Shown here: positions 28,192 to 35,793 of the stretch, in pieces
Numbering within the stretch: the first letter of the stretch is position 1
Layout of the letters: each line of letters starts with the position of its first letter
Translations under genes and position numbers: made by a program
Notes under the pieces: generated by a model
What the model was told of the DNA's origin: nothing
What the model saw: only the letters and a program-made list of their open reading frames with translations
Databases searched by the model: none
Assembly (NCBI GenBank): GCA_035528715.1
Contig: DATKYB010000074.1
Coordinates: forward strand, 1-41,083
Length of the DNA stretch: 41,083 nucleotides
Direction of reading: 5' to 3'
Source of the DNA: Nitrospinota bacterium
Lineage (GTDB): Bacteria > JADFOP01 > DATKYB01

Positions 28192-28582
28192 ATTTAAACT
28201 TTAGATATCATTTAATAAAATCTTATTAAAATATACCACAATAAAATAAATTTTACAACTTGTTATCTTTTGGAAAGTTACTAAATTTTTTGACCAAAAA
28301 ATTTAGAGTTCGGATACTTAAAAACTTTATTTCTTATTGAAATGATTAAAACTCGTTCTTCTTATTCATAAGTTTTCTTCTTTTTCCCTTGCTTCTTCCT
28401 GAGAATCTAAAGAGTTTAAACTAAAACTTTTGATACTAATTTTGGAAAATGACTAAGCATTTATTTTTACTATATATTTTTGAAAGATACCTTCTACAAA
28501 TACCTCTTGACAATTGAGGCTAATTATATTATAAAAATAAGTAATTATAAGAACTTAGCGACTCCTTAAAGGAGGAAATAGT
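28192..28582. promoter_or_regulatory. 391-bp divergent regulatory region between nfeD and the coiled-coil gene
   Basis: No gene is visible. Minus strand: -35 TTGTAA (28253-28258), a 17-bp spacer and -10 TATATT (28230-28235), about 40 bases before the nfeD start. Plus strand: the strong promoter at 28507-28535, listed separately. The middle (about 28260-28500) is AT-rich with no structure I could identify. Confidence 0.5.
28507..28535 (+). promoter_or_regulatory. Near-consensus sigma-70 promoter of the coiled-coil gene
   Basis: TTGACA (28507-28512) matches the -35 consensus fully. After exactly 17 bases comes TATAAA (28530-28535), five of six for the -10. Transcription would start near 28542. 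AAAGGAGGAAA follows about 10 bases ahead of the ATG at 28583, a near-ideal Shine-Dalgarno. Strong promoter plus strong ribosome site predicts abundant expression. Confidence 0.75.
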
Positions 28583-30877
28583 ATGTCAGATAAAGATCAA
28601 CCTACCGATCTTACAAATCCCCAACAATCTAAAGATACTTCAGAACAAGAGCTTTCTGAGTTAAAAGAATTAGTAAAAGATGCATCTCAGGAGAGAAAAA
28701 ATCTTAAGACACTCATAGAATATGTTGAGGGCAAATCCAAAGAGATTTTAGAAAAAAGAGACACGATTGAGGGTATAGATGAAAAGGTATCACGTTTCAG
28801 TGCCATACTAGAAACGTTGGAGAGAAAAAGTAAAGATTTCTCTTGGATGGAAGAGAGGTTAAAAGAAACAGAAAAAACGACCAAAACATTAGAGAAAGTT
28901 TTCGAAGAGACTAAGAGACAAATCGATCGCCTTAATATACTTTCAGAACATGTAAATTCAAAGATACAAGATTTATCCCTTCAGCGAGGGGTGGTAGAGA
29001 AGGCTAATGAAGATGCTGGAAAGCTCAATGTACTCTTATGGGATATGGAATCAAAGATGAGAAAGTTATCTGAAGAGAACAAATTAATCAAGAAGACGGA
29101 TAGGAGTATTGTCAAATTAGAAGGGATGTTAGAAGAGACTTCAGCCAAGGCAAAGATGTTTGAAGATTTTAAGTTATTAATGAAGGAAGCCTCTGGAAAG
29201 ATTACTAATCTTCAGGCTCTTACAGGTGATCTGGATAGTAAAATATTAAGAATTTCTAGGGAAAAAGAAGTGATAGGTAACTTAACTGCCGATACAGAAA
29301 GACTGCAGTCTATGTTAGATAATATGCAGGTAAGTATAGACCAGTTGATAAAACAGGATATTACAGTTGAAGATACAAGAAAAGAGATTGGAAATATGAC
29401 TCCAATGTTGGAAGATCTGAAGGTTGAAATTAAAACTGTATTGGAGAAGACAGGTCTTATAAAGAAAGTGAATGAACGTTTAAATGAGTTAGAATCCGTT
29501 AATGAGAAATTAGAAATGGATATTGTTCAAATTATTGAAGAGAAGAAAGATGTGGATAATATAGGAACAAGGGTAGATCAATTAAAGTCTCTATTAAAAG
29601 ATGATATTGAGGTGAAGGTTGAAGAGTTGAAAGAAGAAATTCAGATTGCTGATATTCTTAAAGAAAGGATCTCTGGATTTCATGACTTAGCTGAGGATAT
29701 ACAAGGCAAGATTGATAGATTTAATGAGGAGATGAAGATCGCTGATGAGATTGAAGAAAGATTAGCTCAGTTAAGGAATCTCTTTGATGAAACAAAAGAA
29801 CAACTCGAAAACATATCGAGCGGAAGACAATTAGTAGAAGAAGTGAATAAAAAGATCAGTGACTTAAATAACATGGTATTAAATCTCGATATAAAGTTGG
29901 AGAGCCAGCTCCAAAGAAAATCTGCATTAGAAAAGATGGAAAAAAGGCTAGATGGTTTAGACTTTTTTATGGAAGAAGCAAATTTAAAGGCAGATCGAAC
30001 AGCCAAAAAGTTGGAATTTATTGAAAAGATAGAAAAGAGAATTGAAAATTTAAGCCCGATTTTAGAAGACATAGAAGGGAAGATCCTTGATCTTACTAAA
30101 GAAAAGGCAGCGGTTGATGCACAGGAGAAAAGAATAAACCAGTTTACTTCTCAGATGTCAACTCTCACTGACGAAATCAATAAAAAACTTGAAGAAATTC
30201 AAGCAGGAAAAGAAGATTTCATAAAACTGCATGAAATAAAAGATAGTTTAGATACAACTTTGGATGATCTGAGGAATAAGTCAGATGAGATTGCAAAAAA
30301 AGAGGAAATGGTGATAAAGGTCGAGAATAAGATATCAGCTCTAGATAATATTGCCGAAGACATAGAAAAAAGAATTGAGACTTTAAAGGAAGAAGAAGAG
30401 TTCGTAATTAAAACTGAAAAGAGGGTAAGTACTTTAGATTCAATATCTAAGAATGTTGAGAAGAGGATGGCTGAAATACAAAAAGAGAAAGAGACCATTG
30501 TGAATACACAAGAAAGTGTTGCGACTCTTCAATCATTAATCCAAGATATAAAGGCACAAATGAAGAGGATTACAAAAGAAAATGAAAACTTAGAAGGAAT
30601 TGGAGACCAGGTAGATAAACTTTCCTCAATAATGAATGAGGTTGAAAATAGAATTGGTTTCTTAAATCAAAAAATTAAAATAATTGATGAAGCAGAGCTG
30701 AGAATAGACAATTTAAGTCTCTTAATGGAAGATGTAAAGGTAAAGACAACAAATCTTCAGAAGGAGGAAAAACTGATTAATATGGCTAGCGAACAATCTG
30801 CAAGGCTTAGGTTTCTCCTTGGAGAAGTTGAGAAAAAGATAGAGGAATATTCTAATATGAAAGGTTCAAAGTCCTGA
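28583..30877 (+). CDS. Long coiled-coil protein built of 31-residue tandem repeats
   Basis: A 764-residue, highly charged protein with no signal peptide and no membrane helix. From about residue 40 to the end it is continuous predicted coiled coil organised in units of 31 residues. Most units begin with a variant of E-x-R-[IV]-x-x-L, have an acidic E-D-[IV]-E-x-[KR] centre, and end in a charged K-E-x segment before an [IVL]-x-x pair. Seven units in a row end the protein. Occasional units are 32 or 35 residues. Thirty-one equals four heptads plus three, so a regular stammer in the supercoil is expected. I do not recognise the family. A rod-like cytoplasmic scaffold or a spacer is a reasonable inference. 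It precedes a class A PBP gene by 67 bases. Confidence 0.82.
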   Translation: MSDKDQPTDLTNPQQSKDTSEQELSELKELVKDASQERKNLKTLIEYVEGKSKEILEKRDTIEGIDEKVSRFSAILETLERKSKDFSWMEERLKETEKTTKTLEKVFEETKRQIDRLNILSEHVNSKIQDLSLQRGVVEKANEDAGKLNVLLWDMESKMRKLSEENKLIKKTDRSIVKLEGMLEETSAKAKMFEDFKLLMKEASGKITNLQALTGDLDSKILRISREKEVIGNLTADTERLQSMLDNMQVSIDQLIKQDITVEDTRKEIGNMTPMLEDLKVEIKTVLEKTGLIKKVNERLNELESVNEKLEMDIVQIIEEKKDVDNIGTRVDQLKSLLKDDIEVKVEELKEEIQIADILKERISGFHDLAEDIQGKIDRFNEEMKIADEIEERLAQLRNLFDETKEQLENISSGRQLVEEVNKKISDLNNMVLNLDIKLESQLQRKSALEKMEKRLDGLDFFMEEANLKADRTAKKLEFIEKIEKRIENLSPILEDIEGKILDLTKEKAAVDAQEKRINQFTSQMSTLTDEINKKLEEIQAGKEDFIKLHEIKDSLDTTLDDLRNKSDEIAKKEEMVIKVENKISALDNIAEDIEKRIETLKEEEEFVIKTEKRVSTLDSISKNVEKRMAEIQKEKETIVNTQESVATLQSLIQDIKAQMKRITKENENLEGIGDQVDKLSSIMNEVENRIGFLNQKIKIIDEAELRIDNLSLLMEDVKVKTTNLQKEEKLINMASEQSARLRFLLGEVEKKIEEYSNMKGSKS
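28700..30850 (+). repeat. Protein-level tandem repeat, 93-bp period (31 codons)
   Basis: About twenty diverged 93-bp units inside the coiled-coil gene. At protein level the register is exact over long runs; at DNA level the units are strongly diverged, so recent slippage expansion is unlikely and the spacing seems to be under selection. Confidence 0.7.
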
Positions 30878-30944: not shown

Positions 30945-33062
30945 ATGTTTTTTAAAAAAAGAAAAAAGGTATATGCCTTTTGGATATCAGAGACTCCGAG
31001 GATTAGAAAAAGAAAAGTCCTGTGTCTCTATATTCCTTTATCAATTTCTGGTATTTTGTCAATATTTCTTATTACGGCCTTCCTTTTTTATTTTATTTTT
31101 AAGATCCCAAGTATTGAAGATTTTCAAAGCTACAAACTTCCTCTCGCTTCAAAAGTATATTCTGATGACGGAGAATTAATCGGAGAATTTTTTCTCGAAA
31201 AGAGGATTTTCGTACCGCTATCAAAAGTCCCCAGACATTTCAAAGAGGCAATCATTTCTGTTGAAGATACACGTTTTTATAGTCATAGAGGAATTGACCT
31301 TTTAGGGATATTAAGAGCCTTTTACTCAAATATTAAAGCGGGTGAGGTTGTTGAGGGAGGAAGCACTATAACGCAACAATTAGTAAGATCATTATTTTTT
31401 AATAGAGAAAAGAAATTATCTAGAAAGATTAAAGAGATATTGCTTGCCATTAAGTTAGAAAGAAAGATATCAAAAGATAAGATATTAGAACTGTATCTTA
31501 ATCAGATATATTTTGGTCATGGGGCTTATGGTATTGAAGCTGCGTCTCAGGCTTATTTTGGAAAATCTGTAGATGAAATAGATTTACAAGAAAGTGCTCT
31601 GTTAGCAGGGCTGCCTCAGGCCCCAAGCGCCTATTCTCCATTTATTAATCCCAAAAAGGCTTTTAAAAGAAGAAACCATGTATTGAAAAGAATGATGATG
31701 GAAAAAAAGATTTCATCCTCAGACTTCAAAATTACAGAAAAAAGCCCTCTTGGACTTAATGTTCGTAATGAGAGAAAAGTAGGCAATTATTTCATTGAAT
31801 ATGTGAGACAGCAGTTGGAGGAAAAATATAAAAATTCTCTGCTTTATAAGGGGGGGTTGCATATATATACAACATTAAATAAAGAAATGCAAGAAAATGC
31901 AGAAGATGCTTTAAGAGAAGGCTTATTAAAATTGGATAAAAGACAAAGAATGTTAAACATTGTGAATGGAGATAATTCTGTTCCAGAAGCAGAAGGTTCA
32001 TTACTAGCCTGTGAACCTAAAACAGGATATATCAAGGCGTTGGTGGGAGGATTTGATTTCAATAGAAGTAAATTTAATAGAGCTATTCAGGCTAAGAGAC
32101 AACCTGGATCAGCCTTCAAACCAATACTCTATCTTGCAGCTTTAGATAACGGTTTTACCCCTGCTGATATTATAATCGATTCTCCTATTGTACATGTTAA
32201 TTTAGATACACAAAGAAACTGGAAGCCAAATAATTATAATAGGATGTTTTCAGGCAAGACAACTCTAAGAAATGCATTAGCTTTTTCCAGAAATGTGATT
32301 TCAGTTAAATTATTAGAAAGGGTCGGGATTGATAGAGTTATAGAATATGCAAAAATTTTGGGTATTAAAAGCCCATTAACAAGAAACCTTTCTCTTGCTT
32401 TAGGCACATCGGAAGTTTCTTTATTGGAGCTAACCTCGTCTTTTGGGGTTTTTGCTAGTGGTGGCTTTAAGGCGGAACCTATTCCAATAAAGTATATTTT
32501 GGATAGGGATGGAAAAATCCTCGATGTTTTTGAGATTAAAAAGAAGAGAGTTATTAGCGAAGAAACGGCCTATCTTATGACAAGTATGTTAGAGGAGGTA
32601 GTTAAAAACGGTACAGGTAGAAATGCCAGATCAATTAAAAGACCCATAGCAGGGAAAACAGGAACGACTGATAATTTTATGGATTCTTGGTTTATAGGTT
32701 TTACTCCAAATTTAGTAGCTGGTGTTTGGGTTGGTTTTGATGAGCCAAGAAGTCTTGGACCTCAAGAAACTGGTTCAAAAACAGCCTTGCCCATTTTTGT
32801 GAAATTTATGAAAAAATCTTTAAAAGATGTCCCAATACAAAATTTTTCTCCTCCCAATGACGTCACTTTTGTTAAGATAGATAAAGAAACAGGACAATTG
32901 GCAACCAAGGATTGTCCTACTAAAAATGTTATATTTGAGGTGTTTAAAAAAGGAACAGAACCAACAAGGTATTGTGATATTCACAGTAAGAGCAAAGGTA
33001 ATTTTTTACAAACTGATTTCATTAGAATAACTGACCAATCTTTATCAGATAGCATCCACTAG
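30945..33062 (+). CDS. mrcA: Class A penicillin-binding protein 1A (peptidoglycan glycosyltransferase/transpeptidase)
   Basis: A 705-residue bifunctional peptidoglycan synthase. A basic cytoplasmic N-terminus is followed by one membrane helix (about 28-53). The GT51 domain has the catalytic EDTRFYSHRG with E107, then EGGSTITQQLVR and KIKEILLAIKLE. The transpeptidase has SxxK as S389-x-x-K392 in QPGSAFKP, SRN at 448-450, and KTGTT from 571. All catalytic motifs are present. It is somewhat shorter than E. coli PBP1A, so inserted accessory domains between the two enzymes are probably reduced. It follows the repeat protein gene, and its stop lies one base from the stop of the opposite-strand small membrane protein. 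Confidence 0.95.
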   Translation: MFFKKRKKVYAFWISETPRIRKRKVLCLYIPLSISGILSIFLITAFLFYFIFKIPSIEDFQSYKLPLASKVYSDDGELIGEFFLEKRIFVPLSKVPRHFKEAIISVEDTRFYSHRGIDLLGILRAFYSNIKAGEVVEGGSTITQQLVRSLFFNREKKLSRKIKEILLAIKLERKISKDKILELYLNQIYFGHGAYGIEAASQAYFGKSVDEIDLQESALLAGLPQAPSAYSPFINPKKAFKRRNHVLKRMMMEKKISSSDFKITEKSPLGLNVRNERKVGNYFIEYVRQQLEEKYKNSLLYKGGLHIYTTLNKEMQENAEDALREGLLKLDKRQRMLNIVNGDNSVPEAEGSLLACEPKTGYIKALVGGFDFNRSKFNRAIQAKRQPGSAFKPILYLAALDNGFTPADIIIDSPIVHVNLDTQRNWKPNNYNRMFSGKTTLRNALAFSRNVISVKLLERVGIDRVIEYAKILGIKSPLTRNLSLALGTSEVSLLELTSSFGVFASGGFKAEPIPIKYILDRDGKILDVFEIKKKRVISEETAYLMTSMLEEVVKNGTGRNARSIKRPIAGKTGTTDNFMDSWFIGFTPNLVAGVWVGFDEPRSLGPQETGSKTALPIFVKFMKKSLKDVPIQNFSPPNDVTFVKIDKETGQLATKDCPTKNVIFEVFKKGTEPTRYCDIHSKSKGNFLQTDFIRITDQSLSDSIH

Positions 33063-34401: not shown

Positions 34402-34992
34402 ATGACTAACCTAAAACAACAAATGTATAAAGAATTTGCCCAAGAAGGTATCAATCAACTTATAGAAGAATATAAAAGGAAATATAAACCTAAGAAAGAA
34501 GATAGATTTAATTATAATGGTATCACTTATGAAATTGGGCCAATAAAAATAACAGATGGTATAGAATTTGAGATTAGTTCAAAGATTCCTCAAGAAGAAC
34601 TGTCAAAGAAAGCTACTTTAACTACCTATTTCAGAGAGGTGAAGAAAATAATCTCGAACGCAGAGAAAAAACCTTATTCTATAGATAAAGAAAATATCAT
34701 TCGAGAAATAAGTGAGGATGAAAAAAAAGAAAGAGACTATGTAAAGCTGAGATACGTTTATTTGGACAACGAATTATATAACAATGAAGAAATATTAAAA
34801 AGGTCTGAGGAAATAATAAAGAACCCACAAAAACATAAAATTCCAGAAATCTATGGTATTAACACTTTAGCTGGTAAGTTAGTTGTATTATCTATAAGAG
34901 ATGCAATTTATAAAAAAGCCAAAGAAAATATGAATGATTTAATCAGTGCAAATGAGCAAGTAAGAAAGAAATTTAAAAAAGATGGCAAGTAG
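34402..34992 (+). CDS. Hypothetical protein, 196 aa, coupled to PilZ gene
   Basis: A lysine- and glutamate-rich soluble protein that I do not recognise. A helical N-terminus (QMYKEFAQEGINQLIEEYKR) is followed by a short beta-rich segment (FNYNGITYEIGPIKITDGIE) and a mostly helical C-terminal half that ends very basic (NEQVRKKFKKDGK). GAGGTG precedes the ATG. Its last 11 bases overlap the start of the PilZ gene, so the two are translationally coupled and probably act together. Confidence 0.65.
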   Translation: MTNLKQQMYKEFAQEGINQLIEEYKRKYKPKKEDRFNYNGITYEIGPIKITDGIEFEISSKIPQEELSKKATLTTYFREVKKIISNAEKKPYSIDKENIIREISEDEKKERDYVKLRYVYLDNELYNNEEILKRSEEIIKNPQKHKIPEIYGINTLAGKLVVLSIRDAIYKKAKENMNDLISANEQVRKKFKKDGK

Positions 34993-35493: not shown

Positions 35494-35793
35494 TTATTCT
35501 AATGATTCTAATATCATCTTTTCGGCAATTTTTTTTGAGTCAGTTTGGTAGGTTCCTTTTTTAATAGCCTGTTTAAGTTCCCTAATCTTTTCTTCTCTGA
35601 TATCAGGGGTCTCCTTTAAAATCTCAGTTATTTTATGGAGATTTTTTGCTTTAGAGGATAAATGAACACTATCAGTCGAAGCAGACTTGGAGTGATTAAT
35701 ATCCGTTTTCCCAAGTTTGTTCTTGTCCTTAGTACGTTGAATATTTTTTAATATTTCGCTATTTATACCTGATTTATCATTATGAATCTTCAT
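35494..35793 (-). CDS. flgM: Anti-sigma-28 factor FlgM
   Basis: A 99-residue FlgM-type anti-sigma factor, which holds sigma-28 (FliA) inactive until the flagellar hook is built and FlgM is exported. The N-terminal half is polar and probably disordered. The C-terminal half has the family signature: DSVHLSSKAKNL, then PDIREEKIRELKQAIKKGTY and DSKKIAEKMI. A purine-rich Shine-Dalgarno (AAAGGGAGAAAGAG) precedes the ATG. It is transcribed opposite to its neighbours and no other flagellar gene is in the window. A weak sigma-28-like promoter lies upstream (35834-35858), which would give the usual feedback. Confidence 0.88.
   Translation of the reverse strand: MKIHNDKSGINSEILKNIQRTKDKNKLGKTDINHSKSASTDSVHLSSKAKNLHKITEILKETPDIREEKIRELKQAIKKGTYQTDSKKIAEKMILESLE

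Follow-up and report, generated by a model that had tools for sequence, protein, structure and literature searches.

A 31-residue-periodic coiled-coil rod protein, probably a remote SpiroCoCo relative, whose gene adjoins that of a class A PBP in two lineages

Introduction

Bacteria contain several coiled-coil proteins with architectural or adaptor functions. Crescentin is a coiled-coil dimer with a stutter that forms shape-determining filaments (PMC10873595), while GpsB is a cytosolic adaptor that binds the cytoplasmic mini-domains of class A PBPs via arginine-containing motifs (PMC6335420). The Leptospira protein Scc is reported to be DNA-binding and filament-forming (cited in PMC2680258). 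In spirochaetes, the SpiroCoCo proteins (NF047515 / NF047514) are, like the protein analyzed here, long coiled coils, with a 31-residue register in their C-terminal domain. Our literature search found nothing under the name ‘SpiroCoCo’ and no report of a 31-residue coiled-coil periodicity.

Here we analyze a gene for a long coiled coil (the rod) in a stretch of 41,083 nucleotides (the window) from a Nitrospinota bacterium, following up an earlier note made from the sequence of this stretch. The rod family is conserved and previously uncharacterized, and occurs in phyla with barely known cell biology, including relatives of the marine nitrite oxidizer Nitrospina.

Results

Gene and expression signals

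The features of the locus are collected in Table 1. The rod gene starts with ATG and encodes a protein of 764 aa with no cysteine, four prolines and a net charge of -38. Since neither a transmembrane segment nor a signal peptide was found (maximum 19-residue hydropathy 0.39), the protein is presumably cytoplasmic. The Pfam search gave no enzyme domain.

A direct pattern search of the window located a sigma-70-type promoter for which the chance expectation is 0.21 over the whole window (shuffling). Together with the Shine-Dalgarno sequence, it agrees with the near-perfect promoter and ribosome site noticed earlier, and the promoter is conserved among homologues: 18 out of 37 have an upstream site that deviates from TTGACA/TATAAT by no more than two bases, compared to about 4% expected from resampled sequence, a count in which kinship among Nitrospinia reduces the number of independent cases. 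The hexamers appear to be selected because the spacers between them have diverged from one homologue to the next. These signals support a rod gene that is transcribed strongly and independently, from its own conserved promoter. The codon usage of the gene is typical of the window and gives no sign of high expression, but codon bias is useless as an expression test here because the genome has almost none.

Table 1. Features of the rod locus, with positions in the window.
Feature	Position	Strand	Basis and remarks
Sigma-70-type promoter TTGACA-N17-TATAAA	28507..28535	+	11/12 consensus bases; starts 76 bp upstream of ATG
Shine-Dalgarno AAGGAGG	28569..28575	+	Sequence; 7 nt 5' of rod ATG
Rod protein, 31-residue-repeat coiled coil	28583..30877	+	ORF list, autocorrelation, register model, AlphaFold2
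Register block 1, residues 104-340	28892..29602	+	Register model; constant 31-residue phase
Most conserved segment, residues 138-155, VEKANEDAGKLNVLLWDM	28994..29047	+	39-sequence alignment; W153 invariant
Register block 2, residues 341-512	29603..30118	+	Register model; 1-residue insertion before, 4-residue insertion after
Second conserved segment, residues 420-470	29840..29992	+	Alignment, AlphaFold2; just past predicted break 402-415
Register block 3, residues 513-753	30119..30841	+	Register model, profile search; SpiroCoCo_C-matching region
C-terminal motif LRFLLGEVEKK	30806..30838	+	Alignment; ELRFLLGEVExK in many relatives
Class A PBP, transglycosylase + transpeptidase, no OB insertion	30945..33062	+	67 bp downstream of rod, same strand
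YAFWI in basic N-terminal cytoplasmic tail of the PBP	30972..30986	+	Tail comparison; candidate docking site

The 31-residue repeat

The earlier note had read an exact 31-residue periodicity from the sequence. The period itself is confirmed: the autocorrelation of residue similarity reaches z = 16.6 at lag 31 against composition shuffles, with harmonics at lags 62 (z = 12.7), 93 (z = 11.1) and 124, while the heptad lags are far weaker (lag 7, z = 5.5). The hydrophobic Fourier peak lies at 3.455 residues (31/9 = 3.444), and a register model scores the rod at 314, versus -195 +/- 15 for shuffles. The exactness holds within three blocks but not over the whole length, which is broken by shifts of +1 near residue 340 and +4 near residue 512, and we count about 24 units instead of about twenty. 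Phase changes of -1 and -4 recur at corresponding places in Nitrospinota and Tectomicrobia homologues. FilP and Scy contain a variant repeat of 51 residues; in the rod, the top 25 lags, led by 31 and its multiples, do not include 51.

The anatomy of the unit was derived by training a cyclic profile of 31 positions on the rod family. Core positions are 18, 21, 25, 28, 0/1, 4, 8 and 11, and position 14 is a weak one. The resulting spacing of 3-4-3-4-3-4-3-3-4 represents four heptads plus one stammer per unit, which falls at the polar, Glu/Lys-rich positions 12-16 of every unit and thus at a constant place, as anticipated in the earlier note. The DNA of the units was correctly seen as diverged: Tandem Repeats Finder found no DNA tandem repeat inside the gene, and the units share about 19% amino acid identity with each other (at lag 31). 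As this is well below the 37% identity between the window rod and its Tectomicrobia orthologue, the repeat array is older than the split of the lineages.

Predicted structure

AlphaFold2 predicts, with moderate confidence (pLDDT 68.5, pTM 0.25; monomer), two helices (residues 21-401 and 416-762) with a sole break at residues 402-415, in keeping with the continuous helical rod proposed earlier, a structural reading that is largely correct. Foldseek gave 0 matches in the PDB with this low-confidence model as query, and a PDB sequence search with the rod returned no informative relative. A straight helix has about 3.62 residues per turn, and the mean supercoil pitch calculated from 31/9 or 3.455 is about 71-76 residues (10.5-11.3 nm), compared to about 106 residues (about 15 nm) for a plain heptad coil. 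The rod would be about 110 nm long. Because Leu is favored at several d-type core positions and Ile/Val at several a-type ones, the rod probably oligomerizes with itself in parallel, most probably as a dimer.

Homologues and conserved segments

A scan of named genomes, seeded on the motifs LWDMESK and VEKANE, identified 37 rod loci, most of them in Nitrospinota and the others in Candidatus Tectomicrobia, Fibrobacterota and one Acidobacteria MAG. Full-length homologues from Nitrospinota, Tectomicrobia and several other lineages are mostly 745-780 aa long with 30-43% identity, and the Fibrobacterota/Acidobacteria branch is longer (860-890 aa, with about 100-120 aa extra). Irregular homologue lengths or a lost register had been set beforehand as findings that would speak against a defined 31-residue rod family; the period is present in all homologues from the scan, and the family withstood this check. 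Since every homologue is 31-periodic with shared shifts at 30-43% identity, register and length are under selection. With a full-length profile, the rod was found in 10 out of 386 broadly sampled genomes, and the family is thus sparse yet spread over several lineages. The same search found no rod in the two class-mates of the window genome.

W153 is present in 39/39 aligned sequences, within the motif VEKANEEAGRLNxLxW. The conservation of this segment is partly by construction because the scan was seeded on LWDMESK and VEKANE; W153 is also kept in seven aligned sequences that were found by the full-length profile and not by motif. The near-constant length, the register shifts fixed across lineages, the two hyperconserved segments and the conserved C-terminal motif would also suit a spacer or tether, i.e., a fixed-length ruler that links two partners by its conserved ends and forms no filament. 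The length is, however, not universal, given the longer Fibrobacterota and Acidobacteriota forms, and no terminal binding domain was recognized in the rod. We judge a ruler to be improbable.

In some loci, the rod gene reads as disrupted. In the Nitrospinota-like genome G007 (L003:1469-1718), the promoter and start are kept and followed by an out-of-frame jump to the last ~70 rod residues. This remnant, located between asd and mtnP, results either from an internal deletion or from collapse of the repetitive gene during assembly, and the rod may be dispensable in G007 because most of the gene is lost there. The rod frame is split around residue 421-423 in G456 (L150), close to the predicted helix break, and farther downstream in G455 (L149), by gene fission, frameshift or assembly error.

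Relation to SpiroCoCo and other named families

The earlier note knew of no named family that fits. That statement is not supported, as the NCBIfam profile SpiroCoCo_C (NF047515) matches the rod with an E-value of 7.5e-49 and contains the same 31-residue repeat. Its 166.6 bits, summed over repeat stretches, exceed the cut-off of 125; among all profiles it has the widest reach over the rod members (27/27 scanned), and it ranks first for the window rod. In 60 spirochaete genomes, the strongest matches to the rod profile are mostly SpiroCoCo_C loci (E down to 2.6e-14). Thirteen spirochaete SpiroCoCo members score z values of 8.7-14.7 with the 31-residue profile of the rod, versus -0.5 to 5.2 for generic coiled coils, which have no such register. 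Open frames with above-cut-off SpiroCoCo matches vary from a few hundred to more than 9000 aa; one spirochaete match (G117:C1 near 81863-82843; L082) lies within an open frame of 9127 residues.

These matches, and a register shared over up to 130-160 residues of SpiroCoCo_C, could mean that the rod is itself a divergent spirochaetal SpiroCoCo member, possibly with a role as a nucleoid or DNA-binding filament as reported for Scc (cited in PMC2680258). Yet the bit score is a sum, the best single stretch reaching 84.1 bits, below the cut-off, and the match stops at profile position 234 of 313. The rod does not have the helix-turn-helix-like C-terminal tail of SpiroCoCo (profile positions ~235-313), and the ending ...GWxxxEIAxxLxxSxxEVExIL... 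of the spirochaete members is not found in the window rod. It also lacks the N-terminal TM segment of the SpiroCoCo member of G019, which starts with MGTLFSFLFPTMVSVFLIFYF, and the regions upstream of SpiroCoCo_C show lags of 11 and 29, not 31. Full membership with a Scc-like role is quite unlikely in our view. Because the tail and the membrane segment are missing, the rod is treated here as a remote SpiroCoCo relative with the 31-residue module in common and not as a family member. Common descent of the rod and SpiroCoCo_C is likely, though unproven because repetitive coiled coils can converge.

Membership in an SMC- or chemoreceptor-like family had also been named as a finding that would refute a separate rod family. 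ATPase heads, MCP domain and anchor are all missing: Pfam shows no ATPase head match and the SMC and Rad50 profile scores are far under the curated cut-offs, and the rod has neither the MCP signalling domain (Pfam) nor a membrane anchor. Sequence similarity to solved crescentin or IF rods was not found either: the PDB search gave no crescentin match and only a marginal keratin-14 fragment (E 0.036). Compared to a crescentin-type single stutter, the +4 shift near residue 512 is conserved in the rod and comes in addition to the +1 shift near residue 340. No DivIVA/GpsB match was found in Pfam at E <= 1.

The neighboring class A PBP

In the window, no intrinsic terminator was found in the gap between the rod gene and the class A PBP gene. 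The same rod-PBP1A order occurs in a second phylum, that of genome G198 (18 species), in which eight genomes encode the rod and a class A PBP of the same type directly follows it on the same strand in 7/7 genomes with a checkable contig. These PBPs are ~45-48% identical to the window PBP, and the gap is ~15-35 bp where both ends are readable on intact ORFs. In the rod tree, in which the deepest forks are weakly supported, the window rod groups next to the Nitrospinota clade, and the closest branch to the G198 group is Tectomicrobia. As the two group apart, the common order does not stem from a recent joint transfer; it is either old or gained twice.

The rod-adjacent PBPs also share a motif, Y(A/S)F(F/W/Y)(V/I), which is present in the short basic cytoplasmic tail of 7/7 such PBPs examined (YAFWI in the window; YAFFV, YAFYV, YSFFV and YAFFI in the others), a single one of them having Ser at the second position. 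It was found in none of the readable PBP tails from a non-exhaustive set of genomes that lack the rod or encode it away from the PBP, and the two other class A PBPs of the window genome do not have it. In the rod-less lineages G001/G002 and g295/G453, we found only a longer PBP type, whose two domains are separated by an insertion (split match). Genome G124 contains the rod, and no short PBP was found there.

The arrangement differs in other carriers. In Nitrospinia, the gene order is leuB-asd-rod-mtnP-hemL, and a conserved operon partner was rejected for Nitrospinota because the neighbors are metabolic housekeeping genes. The rod adjoins an nnrD-type gene in G124, G264 and G393. In Nitrospinota, Tectomicrobia and Fibrobacterota, the rod gene has no PBP gene next to it, and the same is true of most other carriers.

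Two further genes of the window were considered. A FlgM-like anti-sigma-28 factor is encoded at 35494-35793, with two more copies on other contigs of the genome. A 196-aa protein without Pfam match is encoded at 34402-34992; its homologue (49% identical; L043:13250-13852) is located ~1 kb downstream of the Tectomicrobia rod gene, and no other was found among the loci examined.

The PBP neighbor could be coincidental or merely reflect an ancestral gene order, with the rod serving motility, the nucleoid, storage or stress. The rod neighbors indeed differ across most lineages, and the tail motif could have been inherited from the ancestor of this PBP subfamily and retained for other reasons. On the other hand, two distinct regions of the tree, whose rods share 30% identity, both keep the adjacency while the other neighbors changed, and the motif is confined to rod-adjacent PBPs among those examined. 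Nor does another partner point elsewhere: FlgM is near the rod in the window yet missing in several rod carriers, which argues against a flagellar link, and MreB occurs in every tested genome, whether or not it encodes the rod. We rate this alternative as rather unlikely.

The idea of an envelope scaffold raised in the earlier note has accordingly gained ground, through the adjacency in a second phylum and the shared tail motif, while most other carriers show no link. Adjacency and motif speak most clearly for a role in the envelope and give it partial support, strengthening the hypothesis short of proof. This evidence is limited by G124, with a rod but no short PBP, and by the different gene layout in Nitrospinota.

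Discussion

We propose that the rod is a cytoplasmic scaffold, remotely related to SpiroCoCo, to which some lineages tether a class A PBP, a reading we give an even chance of being right. Rods may join at their ends or along their sides to build filaments or a lattice in the cytoplasm, with residues 138-155 and 420-470 and the C-terminus binding partners or adjacent rods. In the window lineage and one other phylum, one of these partners would be the class A PBP whose gene comes immediately after that of the rod. Its basic tail with the YAF(F/W/Y)(V/I) motif could dock onto the acidic rod and thereby position peptidoglycan synthesis. Elsewhere, the rod would work without a dedicated PBP.

A bolder reading, which we put forward tentatively and regard as doubtful, is that of an undescribed kind of peptidoglycan-synthesis scaffold, in which an abundant, overwound rod captures a class A PBP via this tail motif in a manner similar to GpsB in Firmicutes, and the 31-residue repeat defines a class of coiled coils that includes SpiroCoCo. 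If the PBP link is true, the rod would represent a cytoplasmic class A PBP scaffold, without sequence kinship to GpsB, for lineages that have no known one. The 31-residue register, kept across deep divergence and shared with a spirochaete family, also forms a natural test of the effect of regular stammers on a superhelix.

The rod is rated among the long bacterial coiled-coil scaffold proteins. Like crescentin, FilP and Scy, it is a long, presumably cytoplasmic coiled coil that could plausibly form filaments, and the crescentin stutter can be compared to the discontinuity of the rod (PMC10873595), but a regular stammer each 31 residues sets the rod apart from crescentin and IF-like proteins. 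SMC, Rad50 and ASRP match the rod weakly at the profile level via generic coiled-coil similarity, and the rod has no ATPase heads. GpsB and DivIVA, cytoplasmic coiled coils as well, serve as a functional comparison only: the partners of GpsB are class A PBPs with basic tails (PMC6335420), as proposed for the rod, which is many times longer. The tail motif bound by GpsB is SRxxR(R/K), whereas the PBPs adjacent to the rod carry YAF(F/W/Y)(V/I) as putative docking motif. SpiroCoCo has 31-residue units in its C-terminal part only, whereas the rod has them throughout and occurs outside the spirochaetes.
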